From an uncultured Bacteroidota bacterium (GTDB lineage Bacteria > Bacteroidota > Bacteroidia > Flavobacteriales > Flavobacteriaceae): DNA of 64,000 bases. The position numbers were made by a program, and so were the translations under genes. The notes under the pieces are model-generated. The model saw only the letters and a program-made list of their open reading frames with translations, was not told the DNA's origin and ran no database searches. Positions 22,381-48,287 of this stretch are shown here, piece by piece. Each line of letters begins with the position of its first letter. Position 1 is the stretch's first letter. The stretch is taken from contig CABXUL010000006.1 of assembly GCA_902515395.1 (NCBI GenBank), forward strand, positions 1-64,000. The letters are read 5' to 3'.

Positions 22381-22833
22381 CTACTCGCGCTTTTTAGAAT
22401 CAATAAATATTGTGACGGGACCGTCATTAACCATACTCACTTTCATGTCTGCTCCAAAAACCCCCTTAGATACTTGTTTACCTAATCCTTTCTCTGCCAT
22501 TGCTAAAAAGTATTCATAAAGTGGAATAGCAGTCTCATGTTTAGCAGCGCGAATATAAGATGGACGATTGCCCTTTTTTGTTGAGGCCATTAAAGTAAAC
22601 TGACTAATCACCAATAAATCACCTGCCTCTTGCAGCAAACAACGATTCATTACCCCATCAATATCATTAAAAATCCTCATATTTAATAACTTATTAACCA
22701 GCCAAATTACATCTGTCTTGTCGTCATCGCATTCAATCCCCAAAAGCACCAATAAGCCATTACCTATACTGTCGACCAAGTTATCTTCTATTTTTACGGT
22801 TGCAGCTGAAACCTTTTGAATTACTAATCTCAT
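22381..22833 (-). CDS. dtd: D-aminoacyl-tRNA deacylase
   Basis: MRLVIQKVSAATVKIEDN, LVISQFTLMASTKKGNRPSY, NDGPVTIFIDSK. Confidence 0.96.
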   Translation of the reverse strand: MRLVIQKVSAATVKIEDNLVDSIGNGLLVLLGIECDDDKTDVIWLVNKLLNMRIFNDIDGVMNRCLLQEAGDLLVISQFTLMASTKKGNRPSYIRAAKHETAIPLYEYFLAMAEKGLGKQVSKGVFGADMKVSMVNDGPVTIFIDSKKRE

Positions 22834-39381: not shown

Positions 39382-40464
39382 TTATCCGTTTATTACCTTC
39401 TGTTGATGATTTATTGACTCTTGATGAATAGATTTAAATACTCGACTTATAAAATCCTCACTTAATCCTCTTTGTTCACCCTCAATTATCATTGTCTTTA
39501 ATATCTCACTCCAACGTTTATTTTGTAAAACTGCGACATTATTATCTTTTTTAATTTTACCAATAGAGGCCGCTATTTTCATACGTTTACCCAAAGCATC
39601 TAAAAGCACTTGATCAGTAACATCAATTTGTTCACGGTAAGTTTCTAGCTGTGTCTGGTAACCTGCCTCATCAGTAGTCTTTTTACGAATTTTCAAAGAT
39701 TTCATTATCTCAATAAGACGCCTTGGGGTTACCTGTTGTTTAGCATCACTCCAAGCATTATCTGGATCCCAGTGTGTTTCAATCATTAAACCGTCAAAGT
39801 TCAGGTCTAAAGCCCTTTGACTCAGGTCAAAAATCAAATCCCTACGTCCTGCGATATGAGAAGGATCACAGATCAATGGAATATCAGGAAACTTATTTTG
39901 AAATTCCACTGCTATTTGCCATTCGGGATTATTACGATATTTGGATTTATCATAGGTTGAAAATCCTCTGTGTATAACTCCTAAATTTTTGATATCTGCA
40001 GTATACAATCTTTCCAGACCACCCATCCATAATGCTAAATCAGGGTTAACAGGATTTTTAACCAATACAATTTTATCTGTTCCGCAAAGTGCATCCGCGA
40101 TTTCCTGAATTATAAAAGGACTAACAGTCGTTCGAGCACCAATCCAAAGAATATCTATGTCCGCCTCCAAGGCTAATTTGACATGGTCTTTATTGGCAAC
40201 CTCAGTAGTAGTCATTAAACCAGTTTCTTCTTTCACTTTTTTAAGCCAGTCTAAACCGATTGCACCAACACCTTCAAACATTCCCGGACGGGTTCTAGGT
40301 TTCCATATCCCAGCACGATATACCGTTACATCGGTGTCCTTTAATTCATGTGCAATTTTTAAAACCTGCTCCTCCGTTTCCGCGCTACAAGGGCCAGCTA
40401 TAACAAGGGGATGACCTAATCCAAAGTTATCCAGCCAAGTTCTCATTTCTTTACTGTTTTCCAT
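39382..40464 (-). CDS. Bifunctional DAHP synthase / chorismate mutase type II
   Basis: VIAGPCSAETEEQ, YRAGIWKPRTRPGMFEGVG (DAHPS) plus C-terminal YREQIDVTDQVLLDALGKRMKIAASIGKIKK (AroQ-type CM). Confidence 0.94.
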   Translation of the reverse strand: MENSKEMRTWLDNFGLGHPLVIAGPCSAETEEQVLKIAHELKDTDVTVYRAGIWKPRTRPGMFEGVGAIGLDWLKKVKEETGLMTTTEVANKDHVKLALEADIDILWIGARTTVSPFIIQEIADALCGTDKIVLVKNPVNPDLALWMGGLERLYTADIKNLGVIHRGFSTYDKSKYRNNPEWQIAVEFQNKFPDIPLICDPSHIAGRRDLIFDLSQRALDLNFDGLMIETHWDPDNAWSDAKQQVTPRRLIEIMKSLKIRKKTTDEAGYQTQLETYREQIDVTDQVLLDALGKRMKIAASIGKIKKDNNVAVLQNKRWSEILKTMIIEGEQRGLSEDFISRVFKSIHQESINHQQKVING

Positions 40465-40469
40465 TTTTA

Positions 40470-41336
40470 TTAATTGTTTTTTGTGGTTTTGGCAATGCCG
40501 TCTAAAATCTGATCAATACTATTAATAATTTTAATTTTATCGTACAATTCATCGTACTTTTCGTTATCAAGAAGTGATTTAAAATTATTTAGGTTGTTTA
40601 TATATTCTTTAAGTGTTTCACTAATGTTATCTTTATTCTGTTCAAAAATTGGGATCCACATGCTTGGGGAACTTTTTGCAAGGCGAACAGAAGAAGCAAA
40701 CCCACTGCCTGCCATATCGAATATAGTGGCTTGGTCTTTTTCTTTTTCCATTACAGTTTGCCCCAACATATATGAACTAATATGAGATAAGTGAGAAACA
40801 TATGCAATGTGCTGATCGTGCGCAACTGGATCCATTTCCCTTAAATTCATGCCAATTTTTTTAAACCAGTCTTGTGCCCATTCTAATAAATCTGGACGAG
40901 TTTTTTGTGTTTCACAGAGAATTTGAATTTTATTAAAAAATAAATCAGGCAAGGCAGCTTCTGGTCCAGAGTATTCTGTTCCTGCAATTGGATGAGTTGC
41001 GAGAAATTGACCCCTTTTGGAATGAAGGGCTACAGCTTGACATATAGGATATTTTGTAGAGCCAAAATCGATCACTAAACCGTTGTCATTGACTTCATCA
41101 AGTAAATCGATCAATTGATTCATCGCAATATCTACTGGGACAGTCAACAAAATTATATCCATAGATTTTATGTCATTTTTTTGTAATTCAAAATCTATTA
41201 ATCCCATTTTCAAGGACTTTTTAAGGTTGGCCTCGCTTTTATTACTCCCATAAATTTCAGAATCAGGGATATGTTTACGTGCAGATAAAGCAAGTGATCC
41301 TCCAATTAATCCAACACCAATGATACCTATTTTCAT
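40470..41336 (-). CDS. tyrA: Prephenate dehydrogenase
   Basis: MKIGIIGVGLIGGSLAL, FLATHPIAGTEYSGPEAALPDLF, HDQHIAYVSHLSHISSYML. Confidence 0.94.
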   Translation of the reverse strand: MKIGIIGVGLIGGSLALSARKHIPDSEIYGSNKSEANLKKSLKMGLIDFELQKNDIKSMDIILLTVPVDIAMNQLIDLLDEVNDNGLVIDFGSTKYPICQAVALHSKRGQFLATHPIAGTEYSGPEAALPDLFFNKIQILCETQKTRPDLLEWAQDWFKKIGMNLREMDPVAHDQHIAYVSHLSHISSYMLGQTVMEKEKDQATIFDMAGSGFASSVRLAKSSPSMWIPIFEQNKDNISETLKEYINNLNNFKSLLDNEKYDELYDKIKIINSIDQILDGIAKTTKNN

Positions 41337-42481
41337 TTTTTTGTTATTCGTTTAATAGCTTTATTAATTTGGTCTTCTTTTACACATAGTGAAAAACGGA
41401 CATAGCCTTCACCAAGACTGCCAAAGATACTTCCCGGTGTAATAAATAGATTGTATTTTTGTAAAATTTCCTCAATTACTTCAACCGAACTTTTATTAGT
41501 GTCTTTAAGTTTAGCCCAAACAAATAGCCCACTACTTTGAAGATCAAATTCTGTATTTAAAAGTGCCGCTAATTTAAAAATCAACTTTCTTCTTTTGGTG
41601 TAAGTATCATTCAATTGTTTAAACCAGATTTCATTAACATCTAGCGCAGCAATTGCCCCCTTTTGGATTCCTAAAAACATTCCAGAATCCATATTACTTT
41701 TAACCTTCAACAGTGCTTTAATATTTTCTTTATTACCTAAAACCATTCCTACCCGCCAACCAGCCATATTAAAAGATTTACTTAAAGAATTCAATTCCAT
41801 ACCTACCTCCATTGCCCCTGGCACCGAAAGCATGCTATGGGGGCGATCAGTAAGAATAAAACTGTAGGGATTGTCATTTACCAAAAGGATCTCTCTCTCT
41901 CTAACCCAATCAATTAATTTTCTAAATGTTTCTTGTTTAGCATTGGCTCCAGTTGGCATGTTAGGATAATTGACCCACATTATTTTAACACCATTCAAGT
42001 CCATTTGATTTAATGCCTCTAGGTCAGGTTGCCAATCATTTTCAGGACTAAGATTATAAAAAACAGGGGTGGCTTGCAAAAGTCTAGTTACTGATTGGTA
42101 AGTTGGATAACCAGGATTTGGAATCAACACCTTATCTCCAGGATTTAAAAAAGCCATTGAAATATGCATTATACCCTCTTTTGATCCCAAAAGGGGTAAA
42201 ATTTCACTATCGGGATTTGCGTTAACATGATAATGCCTTAGGTAAAATTTGGCAATTGCAATTCTTAGCTCAGGAATTCCCTGATAACTTTGGTACTGAT
42301 GAACTTTGGGATTGCTAAAACTTTCTTTTAACGCCTTGACTACGTCAGGGTGAGCAGGTAAATCAGGACTTCCAATACCCATATTTATTATCGGTTTACC
42401 TTTGGCAATCATAGCAGAAACCTCTCTCAATTTCTTAGAGAAGTAATATTCTTTAACTGTATCTAATCTTTTTGCAATCAT
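41333..42481 (-). CDS. PLP-dependent aminotransferase (probable aromatic amino acid aminotransferase by operon context)
   Basis: INMGIGSPDLPAHPDV, NYPNMPTGANAK, SLSKSFNMAGWRVGMVLG; start/stop overlaps with pheA and tyrA. Confidence 0.92.
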   Translation of the reverse strand: MIAKRLDTVKEYYFSKKLREVSAMIAKGKPIINMGIGSPDLPAHPDVVKALKESFSNPKVHQYQSYQGIPELRIAIAKFYLRHYHVNANPDSEILPLLGSKEGIMHISMAFLNPGDKVLIPNPGYPTYQSVTRLLQATPVFYNLSPENDWQPDLEALNQMDLNGVKIMWVNYPNMPTGANAKQETFRKLIDWVREREILLVNDNPYSFILTDRPHSMLSVPGAMEVGMELNSLSKSFNMAGWRVGMVLGNKENIKALLKVKSNMDSGMFLGIQKGAIAALDVNEIWFKQLNDTYTKRRKLIFKLAALLNTEFDLQSSGLFVWAKLKDTNKSSVEVIEEILQKYNLFITPGSIFGSLGEGYVRFSLCVKEDQINKAIKRITKK

Positions 42482-43302
42482 GATTTATCAGATTTATATT
42501 CACCTAACACTTTAAAGGAGGTAGCCATTATTTTCAATAACGATTTCGCTTTAAAATAATCCGTTGACTCATCAAAAGTAACATCTACAAAAAATGCATA
42601 CTTACCAGGCGTTTTGATCACAGGTAAAGATTGTATTTTGGTCAAATTTAGATTGCAATCACTCACGACATTTAGTGCCGTGGCTAAACTACCACGTTTA
42701 TGGTCTAACACAAATTTCCAAGCAGCCTTGTTTATATTATCTTGTCGTTCAGGGATTGTCTTTTGAACTATTACAAAACGTGTAACATTATTTTTTATCG
42801 TCTGAATAGATTCACTTATAATACTTAATCCATAAATATCAGCAGCCCAAATGCCTGCTATAGCTCCACGACTCTTAATATTTTTTTCACTTATTTTCAT
42901 GGCCTCTTCTGCAGTATCATGACTTTCAACCAACTTGATGTAGGGATAATCCTGGAAAAAATTTTTACACTGTAATATAGCCATAGGGTGAGAATGTACT
43001 TCTTCGATATCAGTTATGGATTGCCCTGGAAGAGCCATCAAATTATGCTGTATACGGAGATAAAACTCACCTACAATGACTAATTCGTATTGGTCTAGCA
43101 ATGCATAGTTAGGCAATATAGATCCTGCAATTGAGTTTTCAATCGCCATGACTGCCTGATCACAATCACCCGCTAAAACAGCTTGTGATAAATCATCAAA
43201 GGTACTGCACTCGACAAGAGATAGGTTACCATCATAATATTCACTTACCACCTGATGATGGAAAGACCCTTTAATACCCTGTATGGCTATTTTTCTTGTC
43301 AT
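42478..43302 (-). CDS. pheA: Prephenate dehydratase with ACT domain
   Basis: IAIQGIKGSFHHQVVSEYY, VMAIENSIAGSILPNYALL, ACT region KRGSLATALNVVSDCNLNLTKIQSLPVIKTPGKYAFFVDV. Confidence 0.95.
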   Translation of the reverse strand: MTRKIAIQGIKGSFHHQVVSEYYDGNLSLVECSTFDDLSQAVLAGDCDQAVMAIENSIAGSILPNYALLDQYELVIVGEFYLRIQHNLMALPGQSITDIEEVHSHPMAILQCKNFFQDYPYIKLVESHDTAEEAMKISEKNIKSRGAIAGIWAADIYGLSIISESIQTIKNNVTRFVIVQKTIPERQDNINKAAWKFVLDHKRGSLATALNVVSDCNLNLTKIQSLPVIKTPGKYAFFVDVTFDESTDYFKAKSLLKIMATSFKVLGEYKSDKS

Positions 43303-43310
43303 ATCCTCAA

Positions 43311-43342
43311 AAAAAAAGTCCCGATAAATCAGGACTTTTTTT
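43311..43342 (-). terminator. Intrinsic terminator in the pheA leader (attenuator)
   Basis: On -: AAAGTCCTGAT-TT-ATCGGGACTTTTTTT; strong stem with U-tract, lying between a short leader ORF and the pheA ATG. Confidence 0.9.
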
Positions 43343-43376
43343 CTTAACTATATTTAGAATATTACAAAGCCCCAAC
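43328..43376 (-). promoter_or_regulatory. Predicted antiterminator pairing in the pheA leader
   Basis: GUUGGGGCUUU (43366-43376) can form 11 contiguous pairs (4 G-U) with AAAGUCCUGAU (43328-43338), the 5' arm of the terminator. Confidence 0.7.
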
Positions 43377-43430
43377 TGCTTCTGAATAGAAGTAGAAAAA
43401 GAAAGTGTAATATGTATTATTGTAAATCAT
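43362..43430 (-). CDS. Phe/Tyr-rich attenuator leader peptide MIYNNTYYTFFFYFYSEAVGAL
   Basis: 22-codon ORF ATG...TAA with 4 Phe and 5 Tyr codons, including a TFFFYFY run, directly upstream of the antiterminator/terminator of the aromatic operon. Too short for the ORF track. Confidence 0.88.
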   Translation of the reverse strand: MIYNNTYYTFFFYFYSEAVGAL

Positions 43431-43444
43431 TTTAAATATCTCGA

Positions 43445-43474
43445 CAAAAGTAAGATAGGTTTTCACAAAAACAA
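43445..43474 (-). promoter_or_regulatory. Predicted promoter of the pheA leader/operon: TTG-N19-TACTTTTG
   Basis: On -: TTG (43474-43472), 19-nt spacer, TACTTTTG (43452-43445), matching the Bacteroidota consensus; ATG of the leader peptide about 14 nt downstream. Confidence 0.7.
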
Positions 43475-43634
43475 ATGATTTTATAAATTTTTTATAATCT
43501 AAAATTTTTTTAATCAGTTAAATAAATTTCTTTTCCAAAACTCTATACTTTAGCTTTTATTATTCCCCTTGGATTATCTAATTTTAATTAATTTCTTAAT
43601 AAAATTTAAATTAGTTTAATTCTACATAAAAATT

Positions 43635-45653: not shown

Positions 45654-46925
45654 TTATACTGCTTTAAGTGCTTGGTCCAAATCTTCTTTTAAGTCTTCAA
45701 TATTTTCAATTCCAACTGAGATTCTAACCAAATCGGACGAAACCCCTGTACTACTTTGCTCTTCTTCATTTAACTGAGAATGAGTAGTGCTAGATGGATG
45801 AATAATCAAAGATTTAGTGTCACCAATATTTGCTAATAAAGCAAAAATCTTTGTGGACTCAGCAACTTTCTTAGCAGCCTCAAAGCCTTTTTTAAGTCCA
45901 AAGGTAACTATGCCGCTTTTTCCGTTTGGTAAGTATTTATTAGCTAAATTATGGTATTTAGAAGAATTTAAACCTGGATAATTAACCCAACTTACTTCTC
46001 CTCTTGATGATAACCACTTGGCTAGTTCTAAAGCATTCTGAGAATGTTTTTGCATACGCACCTCAAGAGTTTCTAGGCCCTGAATGACTTGAAAACTATT
46101 TAGCGGACTAGGTGCGCTACCGAGGTCTCTTAAACCCTCTACTCTAACTCTCGCGATAAAAGCAATTGGACCTAAAGCTTCATGATACTTAAGACCGTGA
46201 TAGGATGGCGAAGGCTCAGTAAATTCAGGAAAATTTCCATTTGAGTAATCAAAAGTTCCAGCATCAATAATAATTCCACCTAGAGTAGTTCCATTACCAG
46301 TAATGTACTTAGTTAATGAATGGATAACAATATTGGCTCCATATTTAATTGGATTAAGTAAGGCAGGAGTTGCAATAGTGTTGTCGACAATAAAAGGTAC
46401 TTTAGCCACTTTTGCATGATCACTGATTCCTTTTAAATCAATCACATCCAATTTTGGATTGCCCAAAGATTCTGCAAAAAATGCTCTTGTGTTTGGCTCA
46501 ACTGCTTTTGCAAAATTCTCTGTATCATCAGGGTCAACAAAAGTTGTAGTAATTCCAAAACGGGGTAGGGTATTACTTAACATATTATAAGTTCCTCCAT
46601 AAAGGCTATTAGATGCTACAATATGATCTCCAGACTTTAATAAGGTCATAAAAGTAGTAGCAATAGCTGCTGTTCCAGAGGCGGTTGCCACTGCAGCAAC
46701 ACCTCCTTCTAAGGCAGCCAAACGCTGTTCAAGAACATCATTGGTGGGGTTATTTAATCTGGTATAAATATACCCTGCCTCTGAAAGTGCAAATAAATTG
46801 GCAGCTTGATCAGAATCCTCAAATACATAGGATGTGGATTGATAAATCGGAACAGCTCTTGTTCCTTGTGTTTTTTTCACATCATGCCCAGCATGAAGTG
46901 CGTTAGTTGCTAATTTTAAACTCAT
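45654..46925 (-). CDS. metY: O-acetylhomoserine aminocarboxypropyltransferase / cysteine synthase family
   Basis: [79 protein letters not shown]. Confidence 0.93.
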
Positions 46926-48178
46926 AATTCAAAAGTGTTTTTAATTTTATTTAAATAATCTAATTTTTCCCAAGTAAAAAGCTCTACTTTTTTTTCTACT
47001 CTCCCACTATAGGGAGATTCAAAAACCTTGGTGATTTTTTGAGGTGATCTCCCCATATGACCATAAGCAGCTGTTTCTAGATAGATTGGGTTTCTAAGTT
47101 TAAGTCTTTGTTCAATAGCGTAAGGGCGTAGATCAAAAATCTGACTTACCTTTTCCGCAATTTCTACATCACTAAATGGCACTTTCGCAGTATTGAAAGT
47201 GTTTACGTTTATTGATGTTGGTGCTATCACCCCTATTGCATAACTTAGTTGAACTAATATTTCTTTTGCAACACCGGCAGCTACAATATTTTTAGCGATA
47301 TGACGAGCCGCATAAGCCGCTGATCGATCAACTTTACTTGGGTCTTTTCCACTAAAAGCACCTCCACCGTGGGCTCCTTTTCCTCCATAAGTATCCACGA
47401 TAATTTTCCTACCTGTTAGACCGGTATCCCCATGTGGACCTCCAATGACAAATTTTCCTGTAGGGTTTATATGGTAGATGATATCATCATTAAAAAGCTT
47501 TTGTATATGCAATGGCTCCTTATTTATAACATTTTTAACAGCTATATTAATAATATCACTATTAATTTTTTTCAAGACCTTCTCATTACTCTTATCAAAT
47601 GGGTCGTGTTGAGTAGAAACTACAATTGTATCAATTCTGATAGGCTTGTGGTTGTCATCATATTCTATGGTAACTTGTGACTTAGCATCGGGACGTAAAT
47701 AGGGAATTTGCTTACCATCCCTTCGTAAATCGGCAAGCTCAATCAAAATTTTATGAGATAAATCTAATGAAAGAGGAATATGGTTATCAGTTTCATCTGT
47801 AGCATAGCCAAACATTATACCCTGATCACCTGCCCCTTGTTCCTCTTTATTATCTCGATCGACACCTCTATTAATGTCTTTGGATTGTTCGTGTATTAGA
47901 GAAATGATACCACATGAATTTCCACTAAACTGATATTCATCTTTAGTATATCCTATATTATTAATTGTATCCCTAGCTATCTGTTGAACATCAAGATATG
48001 TACTACTTTTAACCTCTCCTGCAAGTACCACTTGACCAGTAGTTACAAGTGTTTCACAAGCAACTTTGCTTTCGGGATCAAAAGCAATAAAATTATCCAG
48101 TAATGCGTCACTGATTTGATCAGAAACTTTGTCGGGATGACCTTCGCTTACAGATTCAGAAGTAAATAAGTATGGCAT
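46922..48178 (-). CDS. metK: S-adenosylmethionine synthase
   Basis: [61 protein letters not shown]. Confidence 0.98.
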
Positions 48179-48184
48179 TTAAAA

Positions 48185-48228
48185 ATTGCTTTGTGAAAGG
48201 ATTTGACAAAATAAAGTCTTAAAGCAAT
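48185..48228 (-). promoter_or_regulatory. Predicted OFF-state hairpin of the metK riboswitch expression platform
   Basis: AUUGCUUU (48228-48221) pairs with AAAGCAAU (48192-48185), followed by UUUU and AA then the metK AUG. Confidence 0.55.
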
Positions 48229-48229
48229 A

Positions 48230-48277
48230 CCGCTTTAGCATTTTTTTAAGAGGTTGCAATCAGTCAAATCCTTCCTC
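48230..48277 (-). ncRNA. SAM-II riboswitch aptamer (metA motif) upstream of metK
   Basis: On -: GAGGAAGGATTTGACTGATTGCAACCTCTTAAAAAAATGCTAAAGCGG. P1 GAGG/CCTC with GATTTGA..ATTGCA loop, A-rich strand and GCTAAA..GG as in the SAM-II consensus; precedes metK-metY-metX. Confidence 0.88.
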
Positions 48278-48287
48278 GTTTGAAGTG

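Follow-up and report, generated by a model that had tools for sequence, protein, structure and literature searches.

In the trp, his, thr and leu attenuators of E. coli and Salmonella, the leader RNA is organized into regions 1–4 and a stalled ribosome senses charged tRNA. The E. coli pheL–pheA attenuator (RF01859 Phe_leader, Gammaproteobacteria), whose details are used for comparison here, combines a Phe-codon-rich leader peptide with a mutually exclusive antiterminator and terminator to control pheA, and in all three respects the element described below is like it. Comparative-genomic predictions of attenuation at amino-acid and aminoacyl-tRNA operons were reportedly made by Lopatovskaya, Seliverstov and Lyubetsky in 2010, to judge by their title. 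In a survey of the same year, Proteobacteria and Actinobacteria were the only groups in which, as far as its authors knew, such regulation had been shown; the survey itself added a case from Firmicutes (PMC2965389). According to a 2021 transcriptome study of Flavobacterium psychrophilum, pheA carries an expressed 5′ element that is conserved in other Flavobacteriaceae genera and lacks an Rfam match, and the study sees 'strong clues' for attenuation by leader peptides at operons for amino acids (PMC9723704). That element is almost certainly the same as ours, so the caveat in the initial annotation that it knew of no experimental work in this group needs amending; the main text of the study contains neither the peptide nor the arms, sets out no codon logic, and describes neither an occurrence outside the family nor a codon swap. 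What we add is the peptide with its arms, the range, a spacing rule and the codon swap, none of which was found in the open-access papers searched.

Ahead of the pheA–aminotransferase–tyrA–DAHPS/CM operon of the window (the whole 64,000-nucleotide stretch of DNA that was analysed) lies what is very probably a ribosome-mediated transcription attenuator, predicted to sense scarcity of charged tRNA-Phe or tRNA-Tyr and to control the four genes (Table 1). This reading draws on the observed anatomy, conservation, covariation and fixed spacing of the leader, and on a codon change that accompanies gene loss. In the named relatives' loci the operon is kept, with the aminotransferase on the same strand in 79/80, tyrA in 80/80 and DAHPS/CM in 77/80.

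Table 1 Parts of the pheA leader and genes of the operon in the window
Feature	Position	Strand	Basis and remarks
Promoter	43445..43475	-	TTTG 43475-43472 (-33), 19-nt spacing, TACTTTTG 43452-43445 (-7, TAnnTTTG); read from sequence
Leader ORF MIYNNTYYTFFFYFYSEAVGAL	43362..43430	-	ATG 43430, TAA 43364-43362; 22 codons + stop
Sensing codons F-F-F-Y-F-Y (codons 10-15)	43386..43403	-	Y7 and Y8 directly upstream
Small hairpin CUUCU-AUUC-AGAAG (protector/pause type, 1:2-like)	43379..43392	-	Fold; inside ORF
Antiterminator arm (region 2) GUUGGGGCUUU	43366..43376	-	Last ORF codons; pairs with terminator 5′ arm
Shared arm (region 3) AAAGUCCUGAU	43328..43338	-	Partner either region 2 or region 4
Intrinsic terminator hairpin (regions 3:4) + U tract	43309..43344	-	Fold; conserved helix
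pheA, prephenate dehydratase (PF00800)	42478..43302	-	First operon gene; ATG 43302; Pfam
Class I/II aminotransferase (PF00155)	41333..42481	-	Pfam
tyrA, prephenate dehydrogenase (PF02153, PF20463)	40470..41336	-	Pfam
DAHP synthase / chorismate mutase fusion (PF00793 + PF01817)	39382..40464	-	Pfam

The leader peptide is aromatic at 9 of its 22 residues (four F and five Y, the exact counts of the initial annotation), and its reading frame, aromatic codons and stop are kept in relatives. Within the 20 aligned leaders of equal length (22 codons), codons 12–14 encode Phe or Tyr in 20/20 and codon 15 in 19/20, the third base at conserved aromatic codons is T or C, and F and Y interchange; codon 17 (GAA/GAG) is constant, with a variable codon on either side, a pattern that pairing of this codon with CUUC at the RNA level would produce. 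Among 37 representatives, drawn at <75% identity from 132 distinct leaders, the aromatic fraction is 0.38 in the ORF frame, compared with 0.13 and 0.17 when the other two frames are read, and Phe and Tyr both occur in all 37 aromatic runs, eight of which also contain Trp. A short ORF with clustered codons for the operon's products, in frame and conserved, therefore stands ahead of the operon. The promoter-like TTG-N19 element noticed earlier agrees, on reading the sequence, with the Bacteroidota pattern TTG-N19-TAnnTTTG and places the predicted transcription start about 8–12 nt 5′ of the leader ATG; TTG-N18-21-TAnnTTTG was found 5′ of the leader in 21/37 representatives (shuffles: mean 0.2, maximum 2, 500 rounds).

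The terminator 3′ of the leader ORF reads AAAAAGUCCUGA-UUUA-UCGGGACUUUUUUU and is followed by the pheA start at 43302. It had been described with a 2-nt UU loop, which is impossible; the hairpin itself is present and conserved, folding around a UUUA loop with as many as 16 pairs when the A/U flanks are included, and the terminated RNA would end near 43311. The full 129-nt window leader folds with z = -3.7. A generic terminator scan did not pick up the window terminator, most likely because the A-U extension of the stem consumes the U tract.

The alternative helix, GUUGGGGCUUU with AAAGUCCUGAU, comprises 11 uninterrupted pairs including four G-U, precisely as first described; with these four G-U pairs the window arm is weaker than most and only marginal when taken alone (duplex p = 0.048). 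Over the 37 representatives, the duplex between ORF end and terminator arm averages -12.3 kcal/mol compared with -7.0 (SD 0.32) for shuffled regions, and none of 20000 permutations in which arms were swapped among the 37 leaders was as good as each leader's own arm. In the alignment of relatives the antiterminator is paired in 89.7% of cells, against at most 57.3% when slid, with 18 compensatory cells (matched by 0/500 shuffles), and the terminator helix is paired in 95.8% of cells with 7 compensatory cells (0/500 shuffles); these shuffle p-values are optimistic because the sampled leaders are related, but kinship weighs less on the slid control, the spacing test and the gene-loss pattern. The arm differs by group (GUCCUGA, GUCUCGA, AUCCUGA, GCCUCG, CCCGGC and others), and since the arms co-vary across groups the shared arm remains complementary to both partners. 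A terminator thus lies between the ORF and the first gene, and an antiterminator that excludes it is maintained with covariation.

Directly 5′ of the antiterminator arm sits the small CUUCU/AGAAG hairpin, for which a 1:2 role had been proposed. The fold and the pairing in relatives bear out the hairpin (CUUC/GARG, paired in 87.1% of cells across 29 relatives; compensatory changes at a single pair in 7 sequences, a level reached by 10/500 shuffles), but it conceals the arm only within a longer, weaker leader fold. When the leader is folded by itself, as without translation, the mean z is -2.8 (window, -0.9) and the arm is at least half paired in 35/37 representatives. Folding only the RNA that a stalled ribosome would leave free gives arms 2:3 in 37/37, and with a ribosome placed at the stop codon the terminator forms at a mean of -14.7 kcal/mol (37 representatives). 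The logic first suggested, in which stalling yields the antiterminator (ON) and run-through the terminator (OFF), is consistent with these modelled folds for 37/37 leaders.

The position of the arm is tied to the sensing codons. Across the 37 representatives it starts a median of 14 nt past the first base of the last aromatic codon, with an SD of 2.7 nt (20.5 by chance, minimum 15.8); relative to the stop codon, its position has an SD of 8.8 and a range of -30 to +8 nt. A ribosome with a codon in its A site extends about 12 nt further, so a spacing of about 14 nt puts the arm just beyond the stalled ribosome. Measured from the last aromatic codon in the same way, the start lies at least 10 nt downstream in 35/37, and once a ribosome has reached the stop codon it would cover a mean of 84% of the arm; in 3/37 it would cover little or none, so that the timing of passage or release must matter there. 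The geometry is thus one in which the arm is free of a stalled ribosome and covered by a ribosome at the stop.

From this arrangement we infer how the attenuator would act over time, how transcription would terminate in vivo and how it would respond to amino acids. Transcription would begin some 10 nt 5′ of the leader ORF. With ample Phe and Tyr, the ribosome would pass the aromatic codons, reach the stop and cover GUUGGGGCUUU, whereupon the terminator would fold and transcription end near 43311 (OFF). Were charged tRNA-Phe or tRNA-Tyr short, the ribosome would stall in codons 7–15 with its leading edge just short of GUUGGGGCUUU; the free arm could then pair with the emerging AAAGUCCUGAU, blocking the terminator and letting the polymerase enter pheA (ON). 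If the leader is not translated, its own fold may partly conceal the antiterminator arm.

Relatives were surveyed by means of PheA in 22 same-genus genomes, 300 family genomes and 80 named GTDB loci, together with class-wide and phylum-wide samples. Nearly all same-genus and other Flavobacteriaceae loci that were read have the leader and terminator ahead of pheA, and the element also occurs in several other families of Bacteroidia; the aromatic codons and the terminator, on whose conservation the initial annotation had staked its proposal, are strongly conserved. A rule requiring a short aromatic-rich ORF, a terminator and, at a defined spacing from the last aromatic codon, an antiterminator duplex was scanned over both strands of the window and the 80 named relatives' loci (520 kb) and gave 77 matches in 77 sequences, all just upstream of pheA and none elsewhere, although, as the rule was set after the leaders had been viewed, this measures specificity and not discovery. 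Within the 64-kb window, on either strand, the rule matches this single place. A covariance model (R1) built from 29 leaders matches 49/61 family genomes, its best match lying upstream of pheA wherever both coordinates are listed, within about 100 nt, or about 500 nt in one genome with inserted repeats. In the window organism's genome R1 has one significant match, the window leader (3.7e-15; next, 0.5).

Two apparent absences were rejected: in L124 (Flavobacterium branchiophilum) the leader is present with a GTG start, and in L044 (G034) it lies about 500 nt upstream. In the latter locus (L044/L192, G034 contig C21), tandem repeats of ~110 nt with CCCGCC...GGCGGG hairpins separate the attenuator from pheA. 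At L139 and L140, which seem leaderless, pheA is directly 3′ of an apparent aroA. No leader was seen in L154–L158, the most distant members of the phylum, whose PheA is 34–37% identical. In other classes of the phylum, L142 (G381, family f14) and L149 (G332, family f17) have the leader; their PheA is 43–46% identical to that of the window, compared with about 29–36% for the family mates listed. Horizontal transfer of pheA together with its leader is a possible reading of these two loci.

An alternative interpretation is that the ORF and the hairpin have nothing to do with each other, an ordinary terminator (or that of an upstream transcript) having fallen beside a chance ORF whose TTT and TAT codons mimic an aromatic run. 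The region is AT-rich, AT-rich codons include those for Phe and Tyr, and the window alone yields only modest statistics; but the same-frame aromatic run, the stop, the arm spacing and the arm covariation are kept over many genera, and away from pheA no match to the rule occurs on either strand of the 520 kb. Nor is there an upstream transcript to terminate at this place, since the nearest upstream gene, for an ABC transporter ATPase (Pfam), is divergent. We consider this interpretation extremely unlikely and refuted by the conservation data. It is also conceivable, though very unlikely, that the ribosome is stalled not by a shortage of charged tRNA but by the leader peptide itself, or by free Phe or Tyr bound in the tunnel, as in TnaC-like nascent-peptide arrest. 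The good conservation of the peptide within some genera (for example NNWFYFFFSKRNETLYV) would suit such arrest, but between families the peptide retains no more than its aromatic character, with F and Y interchanging and the flanks varying, and the change of these codons to Trp in genomes without pheA and tyrA fits a codon sensor. A stall that requires the free amino acid would, moreover, switch the operon on amid plentiful product.

A terminator with an alternative helix is equally the layout of a ligand-binding riboswitch, a T-box or a site for an RNA-binding protein, any of which could drive the terminator and leave the ORF incidental. Rfam, searched at the gathering score and then with E up to 10, gave no usable match and no fitting family; the leader region has 0 matches at the gathering score, and the best weak one is the proteobacterial Phe_leader (25.7 bits against a cut-off of 55). 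A conserved structured aptamer is absent, RNAalifold recovering the terminator only, and the codons are conserved in frame, all of which leaves such a regulator with a negligible share of the probability. A ribosome-mediated attenuator reading Phe and Tyr codons remains our interpretation of the element.

The window also holds a SAM-II riboswitch (RF01726, 72.2 bits; 48225-48283, minus strand) directly ahead of an operon led by metK (46922-48178 and the genes downstream), so that two amino-acid operons a few kilobases apart have different kinds of cis RNA control. hisG was not found in the window organism's assembly, which is incomplete.

What the leaders sense appears to change with gene content. 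Of 20 family genomes taken for having no pheA match, 18 have DAHPS/CM, and tyrA is absent from these 18 except for a fragment at a contig end (G083); as the contig is cut inside tyrA, G083 was left out of the gene-loss set. A leader and terminator stand directly ahead of DAHPS/CM in eight genomes (L193–L195, L197–L200, L206), and these leaders have tandem WW in seven cases, a single W in one and no Phe/Tyr run (examples: MNTTTTHPFSANWWHVCKNCQ, MYNTSLYWWHPYKL and MTNNNTWWSNSKFYLKR). All without pheA and tyrA, 8/9 trpE-positive and 0/8 trpE-negative genomes have a Trp leader before DAHPS/CM (one-sided Fisher 0.0004, ignoring kinship). In a DAHPS tree with weak support, seven of the eight Trp-leader genomes lie near each other and G053 lies apart, which indicates probably two events (lineages), not eight. 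In G053, a genome without pheA, an R1 match sits ahead of DAHPS/CM; its Trp leader would thus still fit the pheA-leader model, with codons as if rewritten in place. The antiterminator pairing of single Trp-type DAHPS leaders is weak (p 0.02-0.96), and for these leaders we therefore claim only the Trp codons and the terminator.

The window organism's trpE has a leader of its own, MKHKIEDISWWNDLI (L178 629-676; G000 contig C3, about 22528-22575), with tandem Trp codons, a weak antiterminator and a strong terminator that directly precedes the start of trpE. Ten trpE loci of relatives have WW or WWW leaders with terminators following.

Taken across these genomes, it seems likely that leader-peptide attenuators are an old and general control of aromatic synthesis in Bacteroidota, with Phe/Tyr leaders at pheA and Trp leaders at trpE, and that they re-specialize: where pheA and tyrA were lost and Trp synthesis was kept, DAHPS/CM would have come under a Trp-sensing leader, and where Trp synthesis was lost too, no leader would remain. 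As an evolutionary test of what the leaders sense, the codon swap that follows gene loss is a clean one, and the attenuator would explain the control of aromatic synthesis in a major marine and soil group. In Bacteroidota, translation mostly starts without Shine–Dalgarno pairing and the promoter is unusual, so that tight coupling of transcription and translation is not obvious there; a conserved attenuator that needs coupling opens it to direct testing in a genetic model, for instance Flavobacterium johnsoniae.

The window element belongs to a known kind, the trp/phe/his-type leader-peptide attenuators, and its mechanism is classical. At the score given above, it falls short of membership in RF01859. 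It differs from E. coli pheL–pheA in mixing Phe and Tyr codons, in an operon that adds tyrA, the aminotransferase and DAHPS/CM, in an antiterminator arm placed at the end of the ORF, and in a promoter of the Bacteroidota type. With the E. coli and Salmonella trp, his, thr and leu leaders it shares the four-part logic, but here region 2 overlaps the end of the ORF or lies right next to it, the arm keeps a fixed distance from the sensing codons wherever the stop codon is placed, and arms 2 and 3 are on average about 37 nt apart. The layout is thus of the textbook type, here conserved across Bacteroidota, with codons that shift with the operon's product.
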